NCBI GenBank assembly: GCA_021780415.1
Contig: JAJXYW010000178.1
Location: forward strand, 1 to 20,128
From: Acidobacteriota bacterium
GTDB lineage: Bacteria; Acidobacteriota; Terriglobia; Terriglobales; Acidobacteriaceae
Direction: 5' to 3'
Length of the DNA: 20,128 nucleotides
The notes beneath the pieces were generated by a model. It searched no databases. It was not told where the DNA came from and was given only the letters and a program-made list of their open reading frames with translations. Shown one piece after another: positions 1,744 to 15,214 of the stretch. The position numbers were made by a program, and so were the translations under genes. Each line of letters begins with the position of its first letter. Positions within the stretch are counted from its first letter, which is position 1.

Positions 1744-3426
1744 CTATTTCCCGTCCTGGGCGGCCTTCCAGGTGCGATAGGAGCCGGTGAGGTTGCGAAC
1801 GCGGAAGCCGTGCTGGAGGAGGATTCTGGAGGTGAAGTAGGAGCGCTGGCCGGACTGGCAGTAGGCAATGATCTCGCGGTCGCTCGGAAGTTCGTGCATG
1901 CGGGAACGGATCTGGTCGAGGGGAATGTGCGTGGAGCCGGGGATGAAGCCCTTGGCGCGCTCGTCGGGGCGGCGGACATCGAGCAGGAAGGTCTGCGCGG
2001 GGTCGAGGGTGGCGATCTCACTCCACTGCGCAAGCTGCACATCGCCGTGCAGGACGTCCTGCGCGATCATGCCGGCCATGTTGATGGGGTCCTTGGCCGA
2101 ACCGAAGGGAGGGGCGTAGGCGAGCTCGAGTTCTGCGATATCGTCCATGGTTCTGCCGGCCTGGAGCGCGGTGGCGAGGACGTCGATGCGCTTGTCGATG
2201 CCGTCCTGGCCGACGGCCTGGGCTCCGAGGAGCTTGCCGGTGTCGGGCGCGAAGAGGATCTTCATCGCGATTAACTGCGCGCCGGGATAGTAGCCGGCGT
2301 GCGAGCCGGGATGAAGGTAGACGGTTTGGAAGGGGATGCCAGCTTTGCGGAGCGACTTCTCGTTGGCGCCGGTGCAGCCGGCGGAGAGCGTGAAGAGACG
2401 CAGGATCGCGGTGCCCCAGGTGCCATCGTAGCGTGATGAGCGGCCGCAGATGTTGTCGGCGGCGATGCGGCCCTGGCGGTTGGCGGGGCCGGCGAGCGGG
2501 ATGTGGCTCCATGCGCCGGTGACGGCGTCTTTGACTTCGATGGCGTCGCCGACGGCCCAGATGTGTGGGTCGCTGGTCTGCATGTGGTCGTTGACGCGGA
2601 TGCCGCCGAGGGCGCCGAGTTCGAGGCCGGCAGTTTTCGCGAGCAATGTTTCGGGACGGACGCCGAGCCCGAGGATGACGAGGTCGGCCTCGACGCGCTT
2701 GCCGCTCTTGAGGACTACGACGGAGGCGCGCGCGGTCTCGCCGGCTGCGGGGGCCTCAAAGGCTGCGACGGGATCGTTGAGGTGGAGCTCGATGCCGTTG
2801 GCGACGAGTTCGAGATGGAGCCATGCGGCCATCTCGGGATCGAGCGGGGTCATGACCTGGGGCATGGCCTCAAGCAAGGTGACGGAGAGGCCGCGCTCCT
2901 TGAGTTGCTCGGCCATCTCGAGGCCGATGTAGCCGCCACCGACGACGACGGCGCGGCACTCGTCGCAGTCGTTGAGCCAGCTTGCGATGTACTCGACGTC
3001 GGGAATGTTGCGGACGCTGAAGTGGCCGGGGCGCTCGATGCCGGGGATGGGCGGACGCAGCGGCGAGGCGCCGGGAGAGAGAACGAGCGCGTCGTAGGGT
3101 AACTCGTACTCACGGCCGGTGGCTACTTCGCGGACGGTGAGGACCTGCTGTTTCGCGTCGATGGAGAGGACTTCGGAGTTGACGCGGACGTCGAGATTGA
3201 ACTGCGCACGCAGCGTCGCGGGGGTTTGCAGGAGCAGGGCGTTGCGCTGGATGATTTCGCCGCCGATGAAATATGGCAGGCCGCAGTTGGCGAAGGAGAC
3301 GTAGGGCCCGCGCTCCAGCACGATGATTTCGCAGTCTTCACAGAGACGCCGTGCGCGGGTGGCCGCACCTGCTCCTCCGGCGACTCCGCCGACGATGACG
3401 ATGCGTTTCCCAGCAAGATTGTTCAT
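1744..3426 (-). CDS. CoA-disulfide reductase-like FAD/NAD(P)H oxidoreductase with C-terminal rhodanese domain (CoADR-RHD)
   Basis: A 560-residue fusion. Residues 1-450 are a pyridine nucleotide-disulfide oxidoreductase: FAD-binding GGVAGGAGAATRARR (13-27), a single redox cysteine C48 in SFANCGLPYFIGG, and an NAD(P)H Rossmann motif VVGGGYIGLE near residue 165. C48 with no second CxxxxC cysteine is the mark of the CoA-disulfide/CoA-persulfide reductase and NADH oxidase group. Residues about 465-557 are a rhodanese domain with active-site loop CQSGQRS (C523). Characterised CoADR-RHD fusions reduce CoA persulfide or polysulfide, releasing sulfide. It is the last gene of the operon, 136 bp after the DsrE gene, with a perfect hairpin in the gap. 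A GAGGAAAG sequence lies a rather long 15 nt upstream of ATG. Persulfide reduction fits the context but the direction in vivo is not fixed by sequence. Confidence 0.9.
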   Translation of the reverse strand: MNNLAGKRIVIVGGVAGGAGAATRARRLCEDCEIIVLERGPYVSFANCGLPYFIGGEIIQRNALLLQTPATLRAQFNLDVRVNSEVLSIDAKQQVLTVREVATGREYELPYDALVLSPGASPLRPPIPGIERPGHFSVRNIPDVEYIASWLNDCDECRAVVVGGGYIGLEMAEQLKERGLSVTLLEAMPQVMTPLDPEMAAWLHLELVANGIELHLNDPVAAFEAPAAGETARASVVVLKSGKRVEADLVILGLGVRPETLLAKTAGLELGALGGIRVNDHMQTSDPHIWAVGDAIEVKDAVTGAWSHIPLAGPANRQGRIAADNICGRSSRYDGTWGTAILRLFTLSAGCTGANEKSLRKAGIPFQTVYLHPGSHAGYYPGAQLIAMKILFAPDTGKLLGAQAVGQDGIDKRIDVLATALQAGRTMDDIAELELAYAPPFGSAKDPINMAGMIAQDVLHGDVQLAQWSEIATLDPAQTFLLDVRRPDERAKGFIPGSTHIPLDQIRSRMHELPSDREIIAYCQSGQRSYFTSRILLQHGFRVRNLTGSYRTWKAAQDGK

Positions 3427-3471
3427 AGTGATGTGATACGGCTTTCCTCAGCGATGGTCGAGAGACGACGA

Positions 3472-3494
3472 ATGGGCAGTGACTCACTGCCCAT
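3472..3494 (-). terminator. Perfect 10-bp hairpin between dsrE-like and CoADR-rhodanese genes
   Basis: Inverted repeat ATGGGCAGTG / CACTGCCCAT with a 3-nt loop, in the only wide gap (136 bp) of the distal operon. No run of T follows on the minus strand. It could be a partial terminator, an mRNA stabiliser for the upstream transcript, or an operator. A 12-bp palindrome, ACCAGCGCTGGT, lies closer to the dsrE-like stop at 3540-3551. Confidence 0.45.
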
Positions 3495-3562
3495 CCCAGG
3501 ATTGGGTTTCATCGGCTGATGCGTCTCTTTGATTATTTCACCAGCGCTGGTTTGGCAGTTAT

Positions 3563-4150
3563 TTATAAGAAGAATGCCTGCTTGGATTCGCCGATGAGCT
3601 GGATGAAGGTGCCGGCGCCGACGTAATCGAGGTGCGGGTAGTCGATCATCTCTTCGGCCTTGAAGCCCATGAGGTCCATCGACATCTCGCAGATGTGGAT
3701 CTCGACGCCGTACTCGCCGGCCTCTTTCATAAGCTGCTCGAGAGACTTGACGCCGTGCTGCTGCATGATCGAGCGGATCATTTTGGGGCCGATGCCGGCC
3801 ATCTGCATCTTGGAGAGGGGAAGAGCCTGGGAGCCGCGGGGCAGCATCCAGCCGAACATCTTCTCCATGAACTTTTTGGGTGGGGCCTTCTTTGGATCGC
3901 GCAAGGCGGCCACGGCCCAGAAGGTGAAGAACATATCGACCTTGATGTCATAAGCGGTGGCCGCGAGGGCGATGATGAAGGCGGCGATGGTGGTGTCGAG
4001 ATTTCCGGTCATCACTCCAATGGAGAGGTGGTCGTTGCCGGCGGTTTGCTCGATGGCCTCGACGCGGGCGGTGAGTGCTTCCAGCGCGTCTTTGAAATTG
4101 GCTTGATTGAGATTGACTTGCGTGAGATCGACTTCGGTGGCTGTGGGCAT
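3563..4150 (-). CDS. DsrE-family (DsrE2/DsrE3-like) sulfur-transfer protein
   Basis: A 195-residue cytoplasmic protein of the DsrE/DsrF/DrsH-like superfamily. Residues about 9-37 form a polar helix, followed by a DsrE fold with the family signatures MFFTFWAVAALR (73-84), LPLSKMQMAGIGPKM (110-124) and CEMSMDLMG (154-162). C154 is the only cysteine and sits where this family carries its conserved, presumably persulfide-bearing, cysteine. No clear membrane anchor is seen. In sulfur oxidisers, DsrE-type proteins pass sulfane sulfur between rhodanese and TusA; here all three partners are in one operon. A strong AAGGAG ribosome site precedes ATG. It follows the QmoC-like gene by 27 bp. Confidence 0.88.
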   Translation of the reverse strand: MPTATEVDLTQVNLNQANFKDALEALTARVEAIEQTAGNDHLSIGVMTGNLDTTIAAFIIALAATAYDIKVDMFFTFWAVAALRDPKKAPPKKFMEKMFGWMLPRGSQALPLSKMQMAGIGPKMIRSIMQQHGVKSLEQLMKEAGEYGVEIHICEMSMDLMGFKAEEMIDYPHLDYVGAGTFIQLIGESKQAFFL

Positions 4151-4177
4151 GACGGGCGCTCCTTTGCGGGTATGAGG

Positions 4178-5389
4178 TTAGGCGTTGCTGGCTGCAGCCG
4201 TGGCTTTTTGCGGTGCCGGGGCCAGCGCCCACTCGTGCAGGGCGAGGGCGAGGGTCCGGTAGACGACGTGCGCGAATTTGGTGAGCGGCATGAGGATGAG
4301 AATGTCCATGGCCAGAACGATGTGCGTGAGGAAGATTGCGTAGCCGAAGAGGGTCGGGTGCGGGAGGTAGACGACGACCTCGGTGAGCAGGCCGGTGAGG
4401 ACGGTGCCGGTGAGCAACAGGAGGAAGAACCAATCAGAGAAGGCGCTCTTGTCGTAGGGCGTTTCCTTTGCGCTGATCCTGCGCGAGATGGCGATGGCCA
4501 GGCCGTAGAGGCAGACGAGGCCGCCGACCAGGCCGAGCAGACGCATGGAATACCAGGGAGGAACGGGCGAGCCGATGGGCTTGAAGAGATAGTCCACCGT
4601 GGTGGCGATGAGCATGGCGATGAAGCCCCACATGATGGAGGCGTGGACGAACCAGGCGCGCAGATAGATGGGCTCGTTGGTGGGTTGCTCGGTCGCGTCG
4701 CAGTTGCGGAAGCGGCGATGATTGAGTGCGTCCATGACGGCGGACACGATGGAGGGAATGAGCGCGGAGATCGGAAACGCTGGCCGCTCACCGGAGAGAT
4801 TCTTCTTGCTCATGACTTTGTAGATCATGGAGAAGATGCCGAAGGCGAGGCTGACGCCGATCACGGTAAAGAGTGCGATGCCGATGCCGTGGACCCACTC
4901 GCCGGGGATGAACTGGAAGAGGCGCGTGGAGCCGATGCCGCTGAAGAGCGCGCCGTTACTGCCCATTTCGAGGCCTCCTTTGTGCGAGAGCAGAAGGAGA
5001 ACGAAGAATGCGGAGAGCAGAAGGAAGACCAGAATGTTGACGGTCACGGAGCGGTACATGAGGCCGGACAATCCGGTGGCGTCGTAGCGGGAGATGGCGT
5101 AGCTGCGCGCCGCTGCCATGAACTGCATGGGGTCGGCCTGGCGTGGGCAGGTCTTGGTGCACTCGCCGCAGGCGTAGCAGCGCCAGATGTCTTCGTCGGC
5201 GAGGAGTTCCTTCTCCATGCCGACTTGCGCCATGCGGATGACGCGGCGGGGAAATCCGGAGGAGTCCTCTGCCAGCGGGCAGACAGCGGTGCAGTTTCCG
5301 CAGTTGAAACAGGCACTCACATCCAGCGTGCCGCCGGGGCCGTGCTTCTTGATCTTGTCCATCAGTGCAACATCGATTGCGTGTGCCAT
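4178..5389 (-). CDS. QmoC-like membrane subunit: HdrC-type 4Fe-4S domain fused to cytochrome b (HdrE/NarI-like)
   Basis: A 403-residue protein. The N-terminal HdrC module holds two CxxCxxCxxxCP clusters (C27, C30, C33, C37 and C71, C74, C77, C81). The rest is a membrane domain of about six hydrophobic segments (around 114-135, 167-190, 245-265, 283-302, 320-340, 350-370). Histidines within or at the ends of segments (H167, H249, H356, H374) are candidate heme b ligands. This HdrC-HdrE fusion is the architecture of QmoC, which links cytoplasmic HdrA-like flavoproteins to menaquinone in sulfate reducers. No CCG (HdrB) domain is present, so heterodisulfide chemistry of the methanogen kind is unlikely. 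The start has a GAGGGA ribosome site. It would anchor the two HdrA-like proteins encoded just upstream and exchange electrons with the quinone pool. Confidence 0.85.
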   Translation of the reverse strand: MAHAIDVALMDKIKKHGPGGTLDVSACFNCGNCTAVCPLAEDSSGFPRRVIRMAQVGMEKELLADEDIWRCYACGECTKTCPRQADPMQFMAAARSYAISRYDATGLSGLMYRSVTVNILVFLLLSAFFVLLLLSHKGGLEMGSNGALFSGIGSTRLFQFIPGEWVHGIGIALFTVIGVSLAFGIFSMIYKVMSKKNLSGERPAFPISALIPSIVSAVMDALNHRRFRNCDATEQPTNEPIYLRAWFVHASIMWGFIAMLIATTVDYLFKPIGSPVPPWYSMRLLGLVGGLVCLYGLAIAISRRISAKETPYDKSAFSDWFFLLLLTGTVLTGLLTEVVVYLPHPTLFGYAIFLTHIVLAMDILILMPLTKFAHVVYRTLALALHEWALAPAPQKATAAASNA

Positions 5390-5410
5390 TGCGATCCCTC
5401 GTACTACGTA

Positions 5411-5728
5411 TTAGTGAGCTGTTGCGGCCGCTTCTTCGGTGGCGACGAGCGCATAGAGGAGGTACTCGCCCTCTTCGCCGGCTTCGGTGACATGTCCGTA
5501 TTTGCGCATGCCGGTGAGGTGCCAGAGGGCCTCGTCGCTGGGCATGTTGAGGGCTGCGGCGATCTCGGGAGCCGTGGCCGGCTTCTGGGTGAGCAGTTGG
5601 ACGATCGCCTTGCGCGCAGCCTTTAGTTGTTTGGCGTGCTGCTTCTTTTCTTCGCTGACCCCGCCTATGCGTTCGCGCATGGTGGCGAGAGCCTGTTTCT
5701 GCTGGGCCGTTAGTGTCTTCATTGCCAT
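5411..5728 (-). CDS. Small winged-helix-like protein embedded in the Qmo-like operon
   Basis: A 105-residue protein. Residues 1-40 are a charged, Lys/Gln-rich helix. Residues about 41-95 look like a winged helix: a first helix AIVQLLTQ, a turn, APEIAAALNMPSDEALWHLTGMRKYG as the helix-turn-helix, and a hydrophobic hairpin EGEYLLYALV as the wing. It has no cysteines. The gene is tightly packed, 29 bp after the QmoB-like gene and 21 bp before the QmoC-like gene, so co-expression is near certain. I do not recognise a characterised family. It may be a local regulator, or a winged-helix fold reused as an assembly or docking factor for the complex. Two in-frame ATGs lie six bases apart; the first has an AAGGGAGAG site upstream and is preferred. 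Confidence 0.75.
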   Translation of the reverse strand: MAMKTLTAQQKQALATMRERIGGVSEEKKQHAKQLKAARKAIVQLLTQKPATAPEIAAALNMPSDEALWHLTGMRKYGHVTEAGEEGEYLLYALVATEEAAATAH

Positions 5729-5757
5729 TGTCGATCTCTCCCTTCAGGTGCTCTGGG

Positions 5758-7776
5758 TCAGCCCAGGTGCACCAGTTCTGGTACGCCGCATTGTGCGCTG
5801 GGGGCTTCGGTGACGAGGCCGTCCACCATCGCGTTGTATTGGTCGAGGCGCCAGCCATCGACGTCGAGGGCGCGGGTGGGGCAGACGGGGACGCAGGCTC
5901 CACAGCCGGAACAGAGACCGGCGTTGACCTCGGCGCGTTGCACCATGCGTCCGTCGACTTCCACCTCGACCATCTTGAGTGCGCCTTCGTAGTCGCATTG
6001 CGTGACGCAGATGGCCTCGCCGGTGCAACGTGATGCGTCGACGACAGCGACGAAGGGATTGAGTTCGACGACGTCCTTGGCGAACATGGAGGCGGCTTTG
6101 ACGGCTGCGGCTGCGGCGGCGTTGAGCGTCTCCTGAATGTTCATGGGGCCCTGCGCTGTGCCTGCGAGGAGAACGCCGTTGACGGCAACTTCGACCGGGC
6201 GCAGCTTGGGGTGAACCTCCTGCAGAAAGTGGTCTTCGCCGGTGGAGAGCTTGATGCTCTCGACCAGATCCTCGATGTGGCTGGGCATCATGCCGACGCC
6301 GAGGACGACCATGTCGACGGGGACTTCCAACTCTTCACCCCAGGTGAGCGCGTCCTTGACGGTGACGGTGAGTGGCGCGGATTTCTTGCCATTGGATTTG
6401 GTGTTGCGCTCGACCTTGATGGGGTCTTCGCCGTTGAAGCGGAAGAAGACGACGCCGGCTTTGGAGGCGTTGATGTAGTAGTCCTCTTCGCCGCGGCCGT
6501 AGGTGCGGATGTCACGATGGAAGTCGTAGACGCGGACTTTGGGGAAGCGCTCGCGGACGGCGAGGGCCTGCTGAAGAATGGTGCTGCAACAGACGCGCGA
6601 GCAGTAGGTGTTGAGGGTGCCGTCGGGTTGCGGCTCGTGGACGCCGTCGAGTTGGCGGCTGCCGACGCAGTGCAGAAACGCGATGCTGCGGATGGTGCGA
6701 CCGCGATAGACCATGTCCCGGGTGCGGTCATCGATGCTCTGGGAAAACTGGATGAACTCCGGCGTGGTGAGAACGCAGGGATCTTCGCGATAGAGGAACT
6801 CGCCGTCGCGCGGAACGTACGGGCGGTAGCCGGTGGCCATGACGATCGCGCCTACGAGTTGGTCGGTGGATGCTGTCGCACCAGCGGGTCCGAAGGGGCC
6901 GGTGATGACGGTGCGGAAGTTTCCGATGAAGCCGTTGACGGAGGTGACGTTGCTGTTGAGCAGGACTTCGATGTTCTTGTTCGCGCGCACGTTCTGGATC
7001 AGTTCGGTCACAAACTCACTGGCCATCTTCTCGGAGGGATAGACGCGGCCACGCTCGTTGAGGCGGCCGCCGAGGCGATCGGACTGTTCGACGAGCATGA
7101 CGAGAATGCCGCGGCCTGCCATGTCGACGGCTGCTTTCATGCCGCCGATGCCGCCGCCAATGACGAGAGCTTTGCGATGGTTGGGGAGCTTGATCTGGTC
7201 GAGAGGCGTGGAGTAGCGCAACTTGCCGACGGCAGCGGTGATCATCTGGATGGCCAGATGCGTGGCCCCTTCGGGATCGTGACGATGCGCCCAGGAACCC
7301 TGCTCGCGGATGTTCACCTGCTCATAGAGATACGGGTTCATGTTGGCGCGGGAGACAGCGCCGCGGAAGGTCTGCTCGTGCAGGGAGGGCGAGCACGAGG
7401 CGACCACAACGCGATCGAGATTCTGCTCGAGGATGTCGGAGGTGATGGTCTGTTGACCGGGGTCCGAACAGCAGAAGGTGTTGACCTTCGCGGTGACGAC
7501 TCCGGGAATCAGGCCGACGACTTTCGCTACGCGCTCGACGTCGACGACGTCGGAGATGTTGCCGCCGCAGCGGCAGATGTAGACGCCGACGCGCACCTCG
7601 GGAGGCAGATCAGAGCGCTGCAGGCGGACTTGCTCCAAGTGCTGCTGCACGGCCGCGCGCTGTTTTAGATAGGTTGGATCGGCTTCGAGCAGCGCCTCTT
7701 CTTCTTCAGGAGTCGCGCATGCGAGATCGAGGTCTTCGGTGCCCGGCTGCTTGGTGGAATCGTTCTTGTCGCTCAT
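5758..7776 (-). CDS. HdrA/QmoB-like FAD iron-sulfur protein (large subunit)
   Basis: A 672-residue full-length HdrA-type protein. The N-terminal cysteine-rich domain has CRCGGNI (68-74), CC (102-103) and ASCSPSLHEQTF (126-137). The FAD-binding motif is GGGIGGMKAA (207-216), and the HdrA signatures C370 and YCSRVCC (391-397) follow. A C-terminal ferredoxin domain spans about 575-640. Its second cluster is canonical (C622, C625, C628, C632). Its first keeps only three cysteines (C584, C590, C594), with E587 in place of the usual second cysteine. Unlike sulfate-reducer QmoB, it carries no fused MvhD domain; a separate MvhD-like gene lies upstream. It would bind FAD, possibly bifurcate or relay electrons, and pair with the QmoA-like and QmoC-like subunits. 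A GAGGAC ribosome site precedes ATG; the gap to the upstream gene is 38 bp. Confidence 0.88.
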   Translation of the reverse strand: MSDKNDSTKQPGTEDLDLACATPEEEEALLEADPTYLKQRAAVQQHLEQVRLQRSDLPPEVRVGVYICRCGGNISDVVDVERVAKVVGLIPGVVTAKVNTFCCSDPGQQTITSDILEQNLDRVVVASCSPSLHEQTFRGAVSRANMNPYLYEQVNIREQGSWAHRHDPEGATHLAIQMITAAVGKLRYSTPLDQIKLPNHRKALVIGGGIGGMKAAVDMAGRGILVMLVEQSDRLGGRLNERGRVYPSEKMASEFVTELIQNVRANKNIEVLLNSNVTSVNGFIGNFRTVITGPFGPAGATASTDQLVGAIVMATGYRPYVPRDGEFLYREDPCVLTTPEFIQFSQSIDDRTRDMVYRGRTIRSIAFLHCVGSRQLDGVHEPQPDGTLNTYCSRVCCSTILQQALAVRERFPKVRVYDFHRDIRTYGRGEEDYYINASKAGVVFFRFNGEDPIKVERNTKSNGKKSAPLTVTVKDALTWGEELEVPVDMVVLGVGMMPSHIEDLVESIKLSTGEDHFLQEVHPKLRPVEVAVNGVLLAGTAQGPMNIQETLNAAAAAAVKAASMFAKDVVELNPFVAVVDASRCTGEAICVTQCDYEGALKMVEVEVDGRMVQRAEVNAGLCSGCGACVPVCPTRALDVDGWRLDQYNAMVDGLVTEAPSAQCGVPELVHLG

Positions 7777-7814
7777 ACTTTTGTCCTCGAGGTTCTACTG
7801 GTGTCCTTCGTTCC

Positions 7815-9158
7815 TTATCCGACCAGGACGGCTGACTGCGATTCGGTTACGTTGGCAGACCGCTTCTGATAGAGGTATTGGCTGACCTGCATGGCGGCTG
7901 CACCTGCTTCGGCGATGGTGTCGACGATGTCCTTGGGGCCGGCTGCGACGCCGGCGACGAAGATGCCGGGCGCGGTGGTGACGGTTGGTGAGGTGAGCAT
8001 CGGGGTGGCGACGAAGCCATCGGCTGCGCGCTGCACGGGCGTGGTTCCGGACATGTCCCACTCGGGCAGCATGCCCTGGGCAAGCACGACGAGATCGTGA
8101 CGACGCTCCTGCAGGAAGTTCTCCGGGTCTTCGGTGGTCTCGACGTGCAGGGAGAGATCGCCGTCGTCGACGGGATCGATGCGCGCGACCTTGCCGCGCA
8201 CGAAGTTGACGCCCATGGCTTTGGCGTTCTGGTAGAACTGCTCGTAGCCTTTGCCGAAGGCGCGGATGTCCATGTAGTAGATGGTGATGTCGGCGATGGG
8301 AAGGGCGCCGGAGAGCAGCATGGCCTGCTTGATGGCGTACATGCAGCAGACGCGCGAGCAGTAGGAGACACCGATGGATGCGTCGCGCGAGCCTGCGCAC
8401 TGAACGAAGGCGACGGACGATGGAATTTTGCCGTCGGAGGGACGGAGCACGCGGCCATAGGGGCCGTGCGGAGCGAGCAGACGTTCCATCGTGAGCGCGG
8501 AGACGATGTTCCTGCTGCGCGCTGCGTTGTACTGTGGCTTGACGTTGAGCGAGTTGAGCGCGAAGCCGGAGGCAACGATGACGGCGTCGGTCTGGACGAT
8601 CACTGTTTCGGACTGCTGATCGAACTCGATGGCGTCGGTGGGGCAGACGCGAGCGCAGGTTCCGCAGGTGGCGCAGAGTTCGGGATTGAGCACAGCCTTC
8701 TGCGGGATGGCGTTGGTGAAGGCGACGCCGATGGCTCGCCTGGCACCGAGGCCCTCTTCGAGAGGATCGGGGTACTCGGCGTCGCAGGCGTACTCGCAGA
8801 GACGGCAGCCGATGCACTTGTCGAAGTTGACGTAGGTTGCTTTCTTGAGCAGCTTCACGTGGTGCACGCCGCCGATAGTCTGGATGCCTTGCACCTCGGT
8901 GTTGACGAGGATCTTGATGTTGTCGTGGTGCGAGGACGCGGACATCTTGGGAGCGGTGATGCAACTGGCGCAGTCCAGCGTGGGAAAGACTTTGGCGAGG
9001 GAGATCATGTGGCCACCGATGCTGGGGCCACGCTCGACGAGCATCACCTTGAGCCCCTGTTCGGCGAGATCGAGGGCTGATTGCATGCCGGCGATGCCTC
9101 CTCCAACGACGAGTGCGTCGGGGCGATATGCGTTGCTTTGTTCCGTGGCCGGTGTCAT
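7815..9158 (-). CDS. HdrA/QmoA-like FAD iron-sulfur protein (short subunit)
   Basis: A 447-residue HdrA homologue lacking the N-terminal cysteine-rich domain, close to QmoA in size and layout. The dinucleotide-binding motif VVGGGIAGMQSA (17-28) and the HdrA signature FPTLDCASCITAPKM (58-72) come first. Two full ferredoxin motifs are inserted: C115, C118, C121, C125 and C162, C165, C168, C172P. C254 and YCSRVCC (266-272) complete the family set. The ATG overlaps the stop of the MvhD-like gene as ATGA, which suggests translational coupling and 1:1 production. It probably forms the catalytic or electron-relay core with the larger HdrA-like protein. The paralogy of adjacent HdrA-like genes, plus HdrC/E, is the main reason for preferring Qmo over a soluble Hdr complex. 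Confidence 0.88.
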   Translation of the reverse strand: MTPATEQSNAYRPDALVVGGGIAGMQSALDLAEQGLKVMLVERGPSIGGHMISLAKVFPTLDCASCITAPKMSASSHHDNIKILVNTEVQGIQTIGGVHHVKLLKKATYVNFDKCIGCRLCEYACDAEYPDPLEEGLGARRAIGVAFTNAIPQKAVLNPELCATCGTCARVCPTDAIEFDQQSETVIVQTDAVIVASGFALNSLNVKPQYNAARSRNIVSALTMERLLAPHGPYGRVLRPSDGKIPSSVAFVQCAGSRDASIGVSYCSRVCCMYAIKQAMLLSGALPIADITIYYMDIRAFGKGYEQFYQNAKAMGVNFVRGKVARIDPVDDGDLSLHVETTEDPENFLQERRHDLVVLAQGMLPEWDMSGTTPVQRAADGFVATPMLTSPTVTTAPGIFVAGVAAGPKDIVDTIAEAGAAAMQVSQYLYQKRSANVTESQSAVLVG

Positions 9159-9661
9159 AGCGAGACCCTTTCTGACGTGGAGTGGTTGCCAAGCAGCGCG
9201 GGGTTGACGGAGGATTGCAGGCGCTGCAGCGATTCCTCGTAGAGCTTGCCGGCGCGCGCGCGGTCCACCGGTCCGAGACGGATGAGGTTGTCGGTCATCT
9301 GCGCGATCTCCTTGAGAAAGGCCTTGATGCAGACCGTGCAGATGGCTGTGAGGCGAATGCGCTCGATGTCCAGGCCGCCGTCCTTCATGACGGTAGTGAG
9401 CGTGTCGATGCGCGCGGCGAGACGTTCATAGGCACCGTGGTAGGGGCAGTCCGAACCGCAGGCGGCGATGATGATGCCGTCGATGCCCTTGCTGTAGGTG
9501 CGCAGAAAGAAGTCTTCAGGGAAGAGCACTGGAGAGAGCACGCGCAAAATGTAGACGCTGGAGGGATATTCCAGGTGGGCCTTGCCTACCGCATCGGCAC
9601 CGGGATAGGCGCACTTTTCAGTGGCCAGCACAAGTATCTTAGGAACGAAAACGTCAGCCAT
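9155..9661 (-). CDS. MvhD/FlpD-like hydrogenase iron-sulfur subunit (stand-alone)
   Basis: A 168-residue protein resembling the MvhD/FrhD delta-subunit family (FlpD), which carries a [2Fe-2S] centre and links HdrA to a partner electron donor. Family-like segments are ILVLATEKCAYPGADAVG (C17), the ILRVLSP strand, and GIDGIIIAACGSDCPYHGAYER (C68, C72). S43 stands where MvhD has a cysteine in its MCxGRV stretch. An extra CxxC (C108, C111) is present. No hydrogenase gene is nearby, so the electron partner is unknown. In QmoB this domain is usually fused; here it is separate. I start at ATG 9661, with AAGAGGTG correctly spaced, rather than the in-frame GTG at 9682, whose extra codons contain that ribosome site. 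Confidence 0.78.
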   Translation of the reverse strand: MADVFVPKILVLATEKCAYPGADAVGKAHLEYPSSVYILRVLSPVLFPEDFFLRTYSKGIDGIIIAACGSDCPYHGAYERLAARIDTLTTVMKDGGLDIERIRLTAICTVCIKAFLKEIAQMTDNLIRLGPVDRARAGKLYEESLQRLQSSVNPALLGNHSTSERVSL

Positions 9662-9717
9662 ACCGCACCTCTTACTGACCACGGGCTTCGGCTCGCGGTC
9701 TTGATCGTTGCTCTGGA

Positions 9718-9762
9718 CTACAGGGGCCGGCAGGATGGATGATCCGTGCCGGGACCCTGTAG
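9718..9762 (-). other. Long hairpin just after the tusA stop codon
   Basis: Imperfect inverted repeat of 45 nt. The outer arms CTACAGGG / CCCTGTAG are followed, after small bulges, by CCGGCA / TGCCGG and an inner GGAT / ATCC. On the transcript it begins about five nucleotides after the tusA stop and ends about 55 nt before the MvhD-like ATG. There is no T-tract, so full termination is unlikely. An RNA processing or stabilising stem, or an attenuator, that sets different levels of arsR-tusA and the Qmo-like genes would fit. Confidence 0.5.
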
Positions 9763-9766
9763 GTGG

Positions 9767-10021
9767 TTACTTCTTCCTCAACACAAACAGACGGTCGTGG
9801 CCATCGGCTTCGATGAGGCCGAGATACTCATGGCCGACCTTGGTTGCCCATGTGGATAGATCCTTGCGGGAACCTTTGTCGTTGGACTTTACTTCGATGA
9901 CCTGGCCTACCTTGACGGCGCCGATGCCTTTTTTGGCTTCGAGCAGTGGGCCGGGGCAGGCTGTGCCACGGGCATCGATTACTTTGTCGGCGGTGAGAGT
10001 TGTAAGGTCCTGTGTGTTCAT
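9767..10021 (-). CDS. tusA: TusA-family sulfur carrier protein
   Basis: An 84-residue protein with the TusA signature ARGTACPGPLLEAKK; C22 in the CPGP motif is the persulfide-carrying cysteine. The rest shows the expected small two-layer fold (VIEVKSNDKGSRKDLSTWATKVGH). TusA accepts sulfane sulfur from rhodanese or DsrE proteins and passes it on; in sulfur oxidisers it feeds Dsr or sHdr enzymes. It lies 12 bp after the ArsR-type gene, with a strong AAGGAG site, and leads the sulfur genes. Because the same operon carries DsrE and rhodanese partners, energy metabolism is a likelier role than tRNA thiolation. Confidence 0.93.
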   Translation of the reverse strand: MNTQDLTTLTADKVIDARGTACPGPLLEAKKGIGAVKVGQVIEVKSNDKGSRKDLSTWATKVGHEYLGLIEADGHDRLFVLRKK

Positions 10022-10033
10022 AAACGTCTCCTT

Positions 10034-10453
10034 CTAGTGGGTTATGGGCTGGTGGATGCTTTCAATGGAATGAGCTTCATCTGTTTGATCTGCTTCAGTA
10101 AGTGCTTGCGTGCATACTGCGAATCGGCTGCATTCGGTGACGCTGTTGCGGTCATCGAGCGCCTCGCGAATCAGATTGGCTGCCTGGAAAAACCGTTGAT
10201 CGGCTATGCCATAGGAGACGGTCTGACCTTGCCGTTCGGAGATAACTGCGCCACGGTCGCGCATGAGGCGCAGATGCTGTGAGGCGTTGGAGACCGAGAT
10301 CTCGGCTTCTTCGGCGATCCGGGTCACGCTCCTGGGTCCGTTCTGAAGGGCACAGAAGATGCGCATCCTTGTGGAGTGGGCGAGGATCATGAAGAAGTCG
10401 CCCATGCGTATGCAGTCCAGATGCCGGTCCTGATGCGTAGTTTTCGTGGACAT
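10034..10453 (-). CDS. ArsR/SmtB-family transcriptional regulator (possible persulfide sensor)
   Basis: A 139-residue winged-helix repressor. The core at about residues 20-95 has the ArsR pattern FMILAHSTRMRIFCAL (helix 2), SVTRIAEEAEISVSNASQHLRLMRDRGAV (recognition helix), then the wing ISERQGQTVSYGI. Cysteines are C14, C34, C108 and C114. C34 in MRIFCAL lines up with the first sensing cysteine of SqrR/BigR-type persulfide sensors. C108 or C114 lies after the last core helix, further along than the second SqrR cysteine, so the match is partial. No typical ArsR metal-binding CxCxxC is seen. It is the first gene of the operon, with GAGGAGG before ATG, and probably autoregulates. Sensing persulfide or sulfide is an inference from the cysteines and the gene context. 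Confidence 0.88.
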   Translation of the reverse strand: MSTKTTHQDRHLDCIRMGDFFMILAHSTRMRIFCALQNGPRSVTRIAEEAEISVSNASQHLRLMRDRGAVISERQGQTVSYGIADQRFFQAANLIREALDDRNSVTECSRFAVCTQALTEADQTDEAHSIESIHQPITH

Positions 10454-10708: not shown

Positions 10709-11992
10709 CTAGAAGTAATATCCGATCTGGAAGCCGGCGGAGTTTTCTGACATAGCGGACTGTAATGGAGCCAGGCCGGTAATTCCGAATAATGTCCCGT
10801 CGGTGACTGTATTTTTGAAGGTGTGCATGAAGGCTTCGGTAACACTCCAGCGCATGGGCAGCTTCTGAGTAGCGCCAAAGGTCACGGCCGTGGTTACGAC
10901 TGCGGGCATAATCAGGTTGGCTTGCAGATCCTGCGTCTTGATGGGGTTATTGCCATAGTTGAAGCCCGCACGCACCTGCCAGCTCTTGCTTAGGTCGTAC
11001 TGGGTTCCGATGCTGCCCACCCATTGGTTCTGCCAGTTCATGGGAAGGGCCACCTGGTTGGTTCCGACCCAGGGGCCGAAGACTTTGAACTGATTCATGG
11101 TGCTATGCCAGTTGATCCACTGGCCTTCGACGCTGACCAGCCACTTGGATACGGGATAGAAGGCGGCACCGAGGGCTAGTTGCTGGGGATAGTTGAGGCG
11201 GGCCTCATAAGTGCCTGCTCCACCGGAGATGCCGACCGGGCCGGACTCGCCGACGCCTGTGGGGACAAACTCCTCATCTTCCTGCCAGTAGAGATGGGTG
11301 AACTTCATGACGGTTTTGTAGGAGCCGCCGAGAGTTACTTTATTGTTCACCTTATAGAGGCCGCCGATGGTGGCACCGACGCCGTAGGCCCAGGTGGGAG
11401 AGGTGAGGTCGAGGCCCTGCTCGCCGAAGGTTTCGTCGAAGGAGACCTGTTCTGCGGCGACATTGACGGCGAGTCCGACGCTGAGTCTGTTGGTCAGCTT
11501 GAGGGCAATGGCTGGGGCCATCTGCATGAAGTTGATACTGCTATAGGCCTGAATGGCTCCCATGGGAGTATTCGACTGCATGTAGTTCACGCCCAGACCG
11601 GAGGTACCGAAGATGCCGCCGCCGAAGTAGACGTTGGATCCGGCAGGGGCTGACCAGCCGAGAGCCGGGATGGCGTAAACATTGGTGTGGCTGCCGGTGT
11701 CGCCGAAGCCGAAGTTCGTGCTGCGGACGGGGTTGAAGATCTCGCCGGAGAAGGCGGTTTGCGCGGGGATCCACGCGAGGCCGGCGGGATTGCTGAGAGC
11801 GGTCATGGGATCGCAGGGAGCGGCGACGACGGCACCTCCCATGCCCATGGAACACTGGCCGAAGCCGATTAATTGATAGCCATTGGTGGCCCGTGAAGGA
11901 ACTGCGCAGGCCAATAGGGAAAGGGCAATCAGTGTTGCTCGCAAGTATGTACTCCAGGAGGGTTTGTCCTGGGCCTTCTCATAGGTCGTCAT
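10709..11992 (-). CDS. FadL/OmpP1/TodX-family outer-membrane transport protein
   Basis: A 427-residue exported beta-barrel. The signal peptide has its hydrophobic core at LIALSLLACAVP and likely cleavage after SRA (residue 35). The mature N-terminus TNGYQLIGFGQCSMGMGGAVVAAPCDPMTALSNPAGLA is the FadL hatch signature (NG, G-G, GMGGA, NPAGL). Alternating strands follow, and the protein ends in Phe, as outer-membrane barrels do. FadL proteins let hydrophobic compounds such as fatty acids or aromatic hydrocarbons cross the outer membrane by lateral diffusion; some authors propose a role in sulfur uptake in sulfur oxidisers. It lies 130 bp after the DUF302-like gene and is probably co-transcribed. 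The ribosome site before ATG is poor; an in-frame TTG 48 bases inside, with GGAG upstream, is a less likely start. Confidence 0.87.
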   Translation of the reverse strand: MTTYEKAQDKPSWSTYLRATLIALSLLACAVPSRATNGYQLIGFGQCSMGMGGAVVAAPCDPMTALSNPAGLAWIPAQTAFSGEIFNPVRSTNFGFGDTGSHTNVYAIPALGWSAPAGSNVYFGGGIFGTSGLGVNYMQSNTPMGAIQAYSSINFMQMAPAIALKLTNRLSVGLAVNVAAEQVSFDETFGEQGLDLTSPTWAYGVGATIGGLYKVNNKVTLGGSYKTVMKFTHLYWQEDEEFVPTGVGESGPVGISGGAGTYEARLNYPQQLALGAAFYPVSKWLVSVEGQWINWHSTMNQFKVFGPWVGTNQVALPMNWQNQWVGSIGTQYDLSKSWQVRAGFNYGNNPIKTQDLQANLIMPAVVTTAVTFGATQKLPMRWSVTEAFMHTFKNTVTDGTLFGITGLAPLQSAMSENSAGFQIGYYF

Positions 11993-12122: not shown

Positions 12123-13073
12123 TTAGTTGGAGGCATCCTTGAGCGCAGCCTGAATTGCGCCTGGGGCACAGCGGATGGCCATAAATCCATTGGGGCCCAT
12201 CATGCTCAGGTCGGGAAAGTTTATGGCGATGCGAAATTTCGCGGGCAGGGCGTAGACGGTTCCGCCGGAGACCAGGATTTCGTAAGACAGGTGGCCTGTG
12301 GACTTCTGCTGACTGCCATCGATGATGCTCATGATGTGGCTATCGGCACTGCACTCCTGACCCTGAGTGCCGGAGAGTGCGACGCCAAAGAGCGCCTGCT
12401 CTTTGCCCGGAATGGATACCTGATAGACCTTGGCCGTGCCGCCTTTGTGGGCTGCGAGGCCAGCATTCACTGCATCGAGAGCCTTCTGATAGCTGGGGTA
12501 TTGCGCGAGCGTATCGAGGTCAGTGAAGTACGGCATCATCATCTTGTAGTGGTAGTTTTGCAGGTTGGAAGCGCTCAGGCCGTTCTTCGATCCAAAGGCC
12601 GCCTGGGCTCCGATAGCTTTGCCCAACTGCGTGTCCACGGCTGCGAGATCGCTCTTCAGGCGATAGGCATTGGCCATGTAGGTGGGGTTGGTGTAGGCTA
12701 CCTCGATCTGGTCGTTCACCTTGGTGATGGTCACGCGCTGGACGGCCGCGAAGCCACCGAATGGGGTTTGAGCTGCGGCCTGTTTGAGCGCTGAGTTGGT
12801 GACGCCGATGACCTCGGCTGATACGGTCTCGCCGTTGGAGAACTTCAGGTTGGTGTAGGGAGCGTAGGTTCCCACTACCTCAAAGCCGTTGGCAGCAAGC
12901 TTCTGCTCCAGCTGGGTTACGACCGGGGCGATGTCGCCGGTGGAATTAAAGGCCATTTCAAAAGGCTTGAGGTTATCCGCAGCGGAGGCGGTCATTGAAA
13001 GAGAGATTAATACAATTGCGAGTGACCCTAGTTTGCAGCCAGTCGTGGAGGCGTGTTTCGTGTAGTTGGACAT
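12123..13073 (-). CDS. Exported DUF302-like protein
   Basis: A 316-residue protein with a signal peptide (hydrophobic core LGSLAIVLISLSMTASA, cleavage likely after residue 31). The mature part starts with a DUF302-like pattern: MAFNSTGDIAPVVTQLEQKLAANGFEVVGTYAPYTN, followed by ALKQAAAQTPFGGFAAVQRVTITKVNDQIEVAYTNPTYMANAY. The C-terminal half ends in a second compact region with two cysteines (AIRCAPG and GQECSAD) that could form a disulfide in the periplasm. DUF302 has no settled function; it occurs in several redox and sulfur-related neighbourhoods. The gene is directly downstream of a sigma-54-type promoter region and upstream of the fadL-like gene. The GGGAG site is about 12 nt from the ATG. 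The family call is by pattern and moderately sure. Confidence 0.7.
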   Translation of the reverse strand: MSNYTKHASTTGCKLGSLAIVLISLSMTASAADNLKPFEMAFNSTGDIAPVVTQLEQKLAANGFEVVGTYAPYTNLKFSNGETVSAEVIGVTNSALKQAAAQTPFGGFAAVQRVTITKVNDQIEVAYTNPTYMANAYRLKSDLAAVDTQLGKAIGAQAAFGSKNGLSASNLQNYHYKMMMPYFTDLDTLAQYPSYQKALDAVNAGLAAHKGGTAKVYQVSIPGKEQALFGVALSGTQGQECSADSHIMSIIDGSQQKSTGHLSYEILVSGGTVYALPAKFRIAINFPDLSMMGPNGFMAIRCAPGAIQAALKDASN

Positions 13074-13305: not shown

Positions 13306-14748
<1,443 letters not shown>

Positions 14749-15214
14749 GGGAATTCCTTGCTTGCGCCGCTCCGCGTGTTGCGGGGGAGCGGGCGACGGG
14801 GTGGTCGAGGGCAAGCGTTGCGAACGTTCAGGGTGAACGGATGGACGAGGCCGGGTGCGGTAGCTGAAGATGCCCGGCCCGCGTCCAGTGCATTGAGTTC
14901 CAGCATAAATCGTTACCTGTCCGAGGTCGTCTTCAGTGTGCCTGAATCTTCCATTGGGATAAAGGACATGGATCACAAATTGTTACAGGCAATTTTGAGG
15001 GGGTCTGCGATCTGCGTAGGCGCCCGGGAGGGTGAGGCGGTGGAAGTGGATGGAGCGATGGACTGGAAAACGCATGGAATTGCGGCAAAAACGCAGGACT
15101 GGCCGCCGTGGAGACGGTTCAGACGGTTGGGTGCAGGGGTAATGAAAGCGCTGGCTGGAGAGCGTGGTGGCGGGGCGATTAGCGGTGATGGCCGTGCTGC
15201 CGGAGGGCGGCAGG
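14749..15214. other. 466-bp intergenic region without a convincing gene
   Basis: Between the sigma-54 activator and the 59-residue membrane protein, both on the minus strand. It must contain the activator's promoter, but I see no strong -35/-10 pair. Two small inverted repeats are visible. AAATTG / CAATTT with a 7-bp spacer lies at 14977-14995, in an AT-richer patch, and may be an operator. CTGCCG / CGGCAG with a 5-nt loop lies at 15197-15213, directly after the next gene's stop codon, and may be a weak terminator. Open frames here on either strand have no ribosome site and no recognisable protein. Confidence 0.5.

Follow-up and report, generated by a model that had tools for sequence, protein, structure and literature searches.

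Related systems and the locus

The canonical (type I) QmoABC complex of sulfate reducers contains two HdrA-like flavoproteins and a QmoC subunit with iron-sulfur and cytochrome b domains. The sHdr system joins an HdrA-type flavoprotein to the carriers TusA and DsrE under ArsR regulation, and the cst/yrk-type persulfide operons of Firmicutes encode TusA, DsrE2 and CoA-disulfide reductase (CoADR)-rhodanese-like proteins controlled by a persulfide sensor. Roles in sulfur supply for biosynthesis are likewise known for TusA and DsrE-fold proteins. Here we describe a gene module, a Qmo-like electron-transfer complex encoded together with TusA and DsrE2, found in a 20,128-nucleotide stretch of an Acidobacteriota bacterium (contig JAJXYW010000178.1 of assembly GCA_021780415.1; this whole stretch is called the window). 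It shares the two flavoproteins and the QmoC architecture with canonical QmoABC, but it does not lie beside aprAB, its FlpD is encoded by a separate gene, and sulfur carriers are part of the operon. It resembles sHdr in its flavoprotein, carriers and ArsR gene, but has a NarI-type membrane subunit instead of HdrB. It resembles the cst/yrk-type operons in TusA, DsrE2, a CoADR-rhodanese-like protein and a putative persulfide sensor, but no sulfide:quinone oxidoreductase or persulfide dioxygenase was seen in the window operon, where a Qmo-like complex is found instead.

Type II Qmo, with HdrA-like QmoAB plus QmoC, occurs both in the presence and in the absence of Apr and Dsr, and its function is left unclear in the available text of PMC10504309. 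The window module may be part of type II Qmo, judged by comparing descriptions rather than sequences; a link to TusA/DsrE2 does not appear in the accessible part of that paper. For this branch at least, the set of sulfur-carrier partners offers a testable answer to the role left open there. The YTD cluster and DsrEFH type II also contain TusA and DsrE-family carriers, according to the available parts of PMC12998232 and PMC13293266, and the latter places DsrEFH type II with QmoAB among other sulfate-reduction genes in archaea. In contrast to the YTD cluster, no YeeE/YedE was identified at the window module, and it is the Qmo core that defines the module loci. Among open papers we found no description of a TusA-Qmo-DsrE2 module, nor any paper under the name TsoR.

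We propose, with a probability of roughly 60%, that the module is a quinone-coupled persulfide redox system that depends on neither Apr nor Dsr and does without HdrB. Four groups of observations led us to favor this reading: the gene set is kept in loci picked by QmoB, with the carrier cysteines invariant where aligned; Apr and Dsr are absent from the loci and from many of the genomes, and the window's own genome has no other HdrA-like match; the iron-sulfur cysteines and the histidines of QmoC are kept, and related clusters exchange the partner; and the module comes with an SqrR-like regulator, a linked FadL gene and a CoADR close to persulfide-reductase structures.

A seven-gene core is conserved across phyla

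A one-genome-per-species collection was searched with six aligned QmoB proteins, without using information on neighboring genes. The search yielded 172 QmoB relatives, and the locus counts rest on the best 80, of which 54 were full loci with at least 3.5 kb of flank on each side of qmoB. By their record titles, these 80 loci span about nine named phyla (Acidobacteriota, Planctomycetota, Verrucomicrobiota, Desulfobacterota and other 'Deltaproteobacteria', Armatimonadota, Elusimicrobiota, Spirochaetota, Fibrobacterota and Bdellovibrionota), and some are unnamed.

TusA, FlpD and a small winged-helix gene were each present in 53 of the 54 full loci. The exception was L081, in which QmoB and DsrE2 were the sole module genes seen. 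QmoC was matched in 53 full loci and was true QmoC in 51; the matches in L128 and L131 fell in the HdrC portion of HdrB-motif proteins. A strict tblastn filter detected QmoA in 50 of the 54, and at the level of open reading frames (ORFs) it was present in 73 of the 80 loci. A DsrE-family gene was nearby in all 62 loci having downstream flank, and an ArsR or sigma-54 activator gene was nearby in 54 of 65. The seven core genes (TusA, FlpD, QmoA, QmoB, winged-helix, QmoC and DsrE2) occurred together in at least seven of 299 genomes of the window's class, a lower bound because the lower-ranked QmoC matches were examined in part. One of the seven, G183, is divergent and has a longer QmoA-like ORF. 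Plasmid records gave two distant HdrA-like matches.

The module is therefore real and conserved across phyla, with a grouping of genes beyond chance, and the locus survey and the class genomes led us to reject over-reading of a single contig. The initial annotation had treated nine same-strand genes as a unit. All nine minus-strand ORFs at 1744-10453 and their domains were verified, with families assigned from Pfam and NCBIfam profile matches (Table 1), and the compact spacing it described, mostly gaps below 40 bp or overlaps, fits six of the eight intervals (in transcription order 12 and 84 bp, a 4-bp overlap, 38, 29, 21, 27 and 136 bp). As a unit, it is the seven-gene core that recurs. CoADR-rhodanese lies outside the conserved core, being within 7 kb in just 13 of the 54 full loci; it is an accessory, optional part of the module, and the CoA-persulfide portion of the earlier proposal is not supported.

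The module belongs to a metagenome-assembled genome (MAG) of a Granulicella-like acidobacterium (3.77 Mb in 79 contigs, 89% complete), where it sits on contig C18. The nearest named record among the best 80 loci, a Granulicella MAG (L102), has a QmoB with 94% identity to that of the window.

The module is separated from Qmo linked to Apr

The relation to apr-linked Qmo was analyzed with trees of row subsets, built by a quick method without bootstrap. In the QmoA and QmoB trees, the 12 apr-linked rows were set apart from the window by a long branch with a support of 100 in the Shimodaira-Hasegawa-like approximate likelihood ratio test (SH-aLRT). Placement of the HdrA-like proteins in an unrelated, characterized complex, which the initial annotation would have taken as refuting, was not seen. 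The window QmoA and QmoB are HdrA-like in their profile scores and in alignment to the HdrA of 8rvu. In the QmoC tree, from which two HdrB-motif rows were left out, ten apr-linked QmoC split off at 100, and three others (L049, L057 and L193) nested among the module QmoC, suggesting that QmoC has been swapped between complexes.

Individual residues followed the same division. Cys63 of QmoA was present in all 70 module rows and in none of the 14 apr rows. The HdrA-type cluster cysteines of QmoB (e.g. Cys396) were present in 77 of 77 module rows and 9 of 15 apr rows. The apr-linked QmoB has four additional C-terminal cysteines that are absent from module QmoB, in keeping with a fused FlpD. Part of the conservation of QmoB Cys70 stems from the survey itself, one of whose scan patterns contains this residue.

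The window QmoC scored 214 bits against the curated qmoC profile NF038018 (cut-off 300), and 13 of 55 genomes had a QmoC over this cut-off; in the 55-genome counts, the matches of G299 and G151 coincide in position, and the two seem to be one genome counted twice. Canonical Qmo was rejected as an identity for the module because its QmoC is below the cut-off, no aprA is at the loci, and QmoA and QmoB lie across the 100-supported branch.

The loci lack Apr and Dsr, and most lack HdrB

The window alone had suggested a Qmo-like complex encoded with TusA and DsrE that is independent of AprAB and DsrAB. The survey agrees: neither aprA nor dsrA turned up in any of the 80 loci (aprB was not searched for), so homologous clusters are not always beside aprAB. 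At the genome level, 50 of the 80 were picked for phylum spread. AprA was over the cut-off in 16 and DsrA in 16, with three further DsrA-like matches at 333-363 bits; 31 genomes, all MAGs of unstated completeness, had neither when those three are counted as present. Neither the window genome nor its congener G151, which is 100% complete, gave an AprA match or a DsrA above the cut-off.

These counts bear on the alternative that the module is a variant of canonical Qmo or sHdr whose true partner, AprAB or else HdrB with a lipoate-binding protein, is encoded elsewhere. The 16 genomes with AprA, the 16 with DsrA, and three loci where the QmoC slot is taken by an HdrB-motif protein speak for it; the 31 genomes with neither enzyme speak against it. 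Moreover, in G183, G051, G096 and G166 the module coexists with aprA, dsrA and a second QmoC-like gene encoded elsewhere in the genome, and the two types of QmoA and QmoB are separated as described above. When HdrA-like proteins were searched for, scoring in each genome 22 of as many as 56 candidates, all matches at E<=1e-20 belonged to the module in 21 of the 32 genomes without Apr or Dsr over the cut-off. The window genome is among these 21, with no HdrA-like match outside the module locus at this threshold. We consider this alternative quite improbable.

The absence of HdrB noted initially was borne out at the locus: the HdrB-type CCG motif appeared in just three of the 80 loci, each time in the QmoC slot, and no PF02754 match was found on contig C18. 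The window genome has ten CCG matches; eight of them, which exclude the two weaker ones, lie in four proteins resembling by eye GlcF, LutA and two membrane iron-sulfur oxidoreductases. Membership in sHdr was rejected on the distribution of this CCG subunit, and the catalytic HdrB subunit of HdrABC-type complexes was not found at the module. Among the module genes, none was recognized as encoding a lipoate-binding protein. Membership in the YTD cluster was likewise rejected, as the PF04143 matches of the window genome lie on contig C28 and not on C18, and 41 of the 55 genomes had no match to this YeeE/YedE family.

The same electron-transfer core is found with other partners

In L046, a relative within the class, the gene order is QmoB, FlpD, homologs of the small and large subunits of NiFe hydrogenase, QmoA, the winged-helix protein and QmoC. 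Together with L044 and L045 (the three correspond to G169, G080 and G125), it represents a hydrogenase-type related operon, with the subunits shown for L046; a hydrogen-to-quinone complex is possible from this gene content. In the QmoA tree the rows of L044-L046 nest inside the module rows, so that the module is not strictly one clade. L050 encodes FlpD with iron-sulfur and NAD-binding proteins, read as FlxAB-like, followed by QmoA-, QmoC- and QmoB-like genes. At apr loci, the partner position is held by AprA. The hydrogenase- and FlxAB-like clusters had been overlooked in the initial annotation, as had the FadL channel and the SqrR-like regulator treated below.

These arrangements suggest that the partner position is swapped while the electron-transfer part stays, and that TusA and DsrE2 hold this position in the window. 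This is our main argument that carrier-bound persulfide would be the redox partner of the complex.

Cysteines and histidines of the carriers and redox subunits are retained

The CPGP motif of TusA was invariant in six aligned proteins, and Cys154 of DsrE2 was invariant in seven, with the cysteine also kept in the PDB relative 3pnx. In FlpD, Cys79, Cys115 and Cys118 were invariant in five aligned proteins. The HdrA-type cluster cysteines of QmoA (254/267/271/272), which align to the HdrA of 8rvu, were present in 70 of 70 module rows. Residues 584-594 of the window QmoB form the first C-terminal ferredoxin motif without its second cysteine. The same loss was seen in many module QmoB proteins and in 0 of 15 apr-linked rows.

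For QmoC, all 73 module rows and all 13 apr rows retained the eight iron-sulfur cysteines, His249 and His374; His356 was kept in 67 of the module rows and in every apr row. His249, His356 and His374 are likely haem ligands, as judged from this conservation. The QmoC model, with a predicted local distance difference test (pLDDT) score of 82, had no Foldseek match in PDB at E<=0.001; the top-ranked chains were HdrC (E 0.004) and NarI (E 0.2). Homolog searches gave 1216 relatives of QmoC and 283 of the winged-helix protein, and the 120 of each that were listed served for alignments only.

The best PDB relative of CoADR-rhodanese was 3nta (625 bits), with both active-site cysteines aligned, and the match to 8a56, named a CoA-persulfide reductase, reached 536 bits. 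In the available part of PMC6018796, tusA and dsrE2 are absent from the peat Acidobacteria considered there.

Regulators, the winged-helix protein and persulfide homeostasis

The best PDB relative of the window ArsR, named by entry titles, is SqrR, and Cys34 aligns with one SqrR cysteine. The loci contributed 40 ArsR proteins, a few of them encoded away from the operon; Cys34 was present in 33 and Cys14 in 27. Two-cysteine ArsR repressors are sulfane sensors, and sulfane-responsive ArsR regulators, including that of sHdr, control genes of oxidation and/or detoxification, as given in the available text of PMC12423496. A relative of the sigma-54 activator was within 7 kb in 17 of the 54 full loci.

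The regulator raises the alternative of persulfide homeostasis, in which an ArsR-controlled stress operon would clear reactive sulfur by means of TusA, DsrE2 and CoADR-rhodanese and the Qmo-like complex would dump or supply electrons with no energy conservation. Besides the resemblance to SqrR and the detoxification genes under related regulators (PMC12423496, in its available part), the closeness of CoADR-rhodanese to persulfide reductase structures speaks for it. This reductase, however, is near the module in a minority of full loci only, sigma-54 activator relatives are found near the module as counted above, and a multi-subunit membrane complex would seem costly for detoxification. We regard homeostasis as unlikely.

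The 105-residue gene left without a name in the initial annotation encodes the winged-helix protein. Its model has an ArsR-like fold with two Foldseek hits at E<=0.001. The mean charge of the wing was -1.76 in 51 winged-helix proteins and +1.73 in 40 ArsR proteins, and the recognition helix was mildly basic (+1.31, compared with +1.73 in ArsR). The gene has a fixed place after qmoB, usually directly before qmoC. Because of the acidic wing and the fixed place, the modeled protein is probably a structural subunit of the complex and probably does not bind DNA, though it could still act as a regulator.

A FadL channel is linked to the module in some lineages

A FadL-family gene was present in 21 of the 80 loci, in Acidobacteriota, Planctomycetota, Armatimonadota and Elusimicrobiota, at positions upstream or downstream of the operon or inside it. 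Of 27 genomes searched for FadL, three of which (G307, G315 and G317) were picked knowing that FadL was at the locus, 21 had a match and six had none at all. In 16 the match lay no more than about 10 kb from the module on its contig, and for 13 of those 16 it was the sole match of the genome, as it is for the single PF03349 match of the window genome. By a rough estimate, well below one such linkage is expected by chance. The linkage suggests that FadL takes up a hydrophobic sulfur compound. No paper linking FadL, elemental sulfur, the outer membrane and TusA was found in our literature search.

The linkage also bears on whether the module could be a biosynthetic sulfur supply, for cofactor or RNA thiolation or selenium metabolism, with the redox complex freeing sulfide from persulfide. 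TusA and DsrE-fold proteins do serve such roles, and the window TusA has a weak match to the selenium-related protein YedF (28 bits, cut-off 110). A general biosynthetic need is nevertheless ill-suited to FadL linkage, to a sulfane-sensor-like regulator, and to a patchy distribution with seven confirmed of the 299 class genomes. This explanation is very unlikely.

Proposed function

In the quinone-coupled persulfide redox system that we favor, sulfane sulfur would cross the outer membrane via the neighboring FadL channel in some lineages and be loaded as persulfide onto TusA and DsrE2. Electrons would pass between the carrier-bound persulfide and FlpD/QmoAB and reach the menaquinone pool by way of QmoC. 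The operon would be induced by a persulfide-sensing ArsR, and in the lineage of the window CoADR-rhodanese would reduce or recycle low-molecular-weight persulfides. If the function is persulfide redox, net oxidation of sulfane or sulfide to quinone would be the likelier direction, and persulfide reduction would have a lesser but sizeable chance.

Several observations weigh against this reading. No recognizable catalytic sulfur site is present at the module, that is, no HdrB, siroheme or adenosine 5'-phosphosulfate (APS) enzyme. By record titles, all 80 loci come from MAGs or uncultured bins, and the genomes with AprA mentioned above count here too. In L126, L128 and L131, one of which is titled Desulfarculaceae, the QmoC slot holds a 380-residue protein with HdrC and HdrB (CCG) parts; since it replaces QmoC, the quinone link is not universal, and this branch may not reach quinone. 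His167 of QmoC, almost invariant in a narrower set of 32 mostly close rows, was present in just 42 of the 73 module rows and in two of the 13 apr rows, which makes the haem count uncertain. ArsR has no second SqrR cysteine at the homologous place; the other frequent cysteine is Cys14, which is not C-terminal, and the Cys14-Cys34 pair is missing in 13 of the 40 proteins. FadL was not found in 59 of the 80 loci, some of them short contigs. The YeeE-like PF04143 matches of the window genome reached 36.5 and 27.5 bits (cut-off 27), though away from the module contig. SoxY gave no match in 32 genomes, and its control was equally silent, which makes this result uninformative.

The shared gene set, often without sulfate-respiring enzymes, points to an unstudied mode of sulfur use. 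We tentatively consider that it might be a distinct sulfur-respiratory pathway, in which hydrophobic sulfane sulfur imported by FadL would be carried as TusA/DsrE2 persulfide and would exchange electrons directly with quinone through HdrA, FlpD and QmoC, without Apr, Dsr or HdrB, on a chassis that also takes a hydrogenase or an NAD-linked module. If true, this would add a sulfur-to-quinone route, overlooked by dsr/apr screens, in Acidobacteriota, Planctomycetota, Armatimonadota, Elusimicrobiota and others, and would suggest a route for hydrophobic sulfur across the outer membrane.

Gene inventory and neighboring genes

Table 1. Features of the module and its upstream neighbors, with positions in the window.
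Feature	Position	Strand	Support
ArsR-family repressor	10034..10453	-	Cys14, Cys34; best PDB relative SqrR
TusA sulfur carrier	9767..10021	-	PF01206 66 bits; CPGP motif, Cys22
FlpD/MvhD iron-sulfur electron-entry subunit, stand-alone gene	9155..9682	-	PF02662 74 bits
QmoA-like, HdrA core, FAD site, inserted ferredoxin	7815..9158	-	NF040770 (HdrA2) 446 bits, below cut-off 1100
QmoB-like: HdrA N-terminal cluster domain, FAD domain, C-terminal ferredoxin, without fused FlpD	5758..7776	-	NF040770 463 bits
Small winged-helix protein, 105 residues, without cysteine	5411..5728	-	Model pLDDT 87, ArsR-like fold
QmoC-like: HdrC-type two [4Fe-4S] and NarI-type cytochrome b	4178..5389	-	NF038018 214 bits; PF02665 over cut-off
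DsrE2 sulfurtransferase/carrier, Cys154	3563..4150	-	PF13686 156 bits; NCBIfam DsrE2 60 bits, below cut-off 210
CoA-disulfide/persulfide reductase fused to rhodanese	1744..3426	-	TIGR03385 480 bits (cut-off 579) and PF00581
FadL/TodX-type outer membrane channel	10709..11992	-	PF03349 92 bits
Protein without Pfam match between FadL gene and regulator; secreted by eye (unscored)	12123..13073	-	
Sigma-54-dependent activator upstream of FadL gene	13306..14976	-	PF00158 222 bits

The protein without a Pfam match encoded at 12123..13073 was found near the module in three of the 80 loci, all close relatives. In L126 and L131, the HdrCB-like gene is followed by a gene for a protein of 210-214 residues. 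A 235-residue protein with cysteines and without a Pfam match is encoded in L114 (14724-15431) and has relatives in L097, L099, L103, L109 and L133; proteins of this type are thus near the module in six deltaproteobacterial loci.

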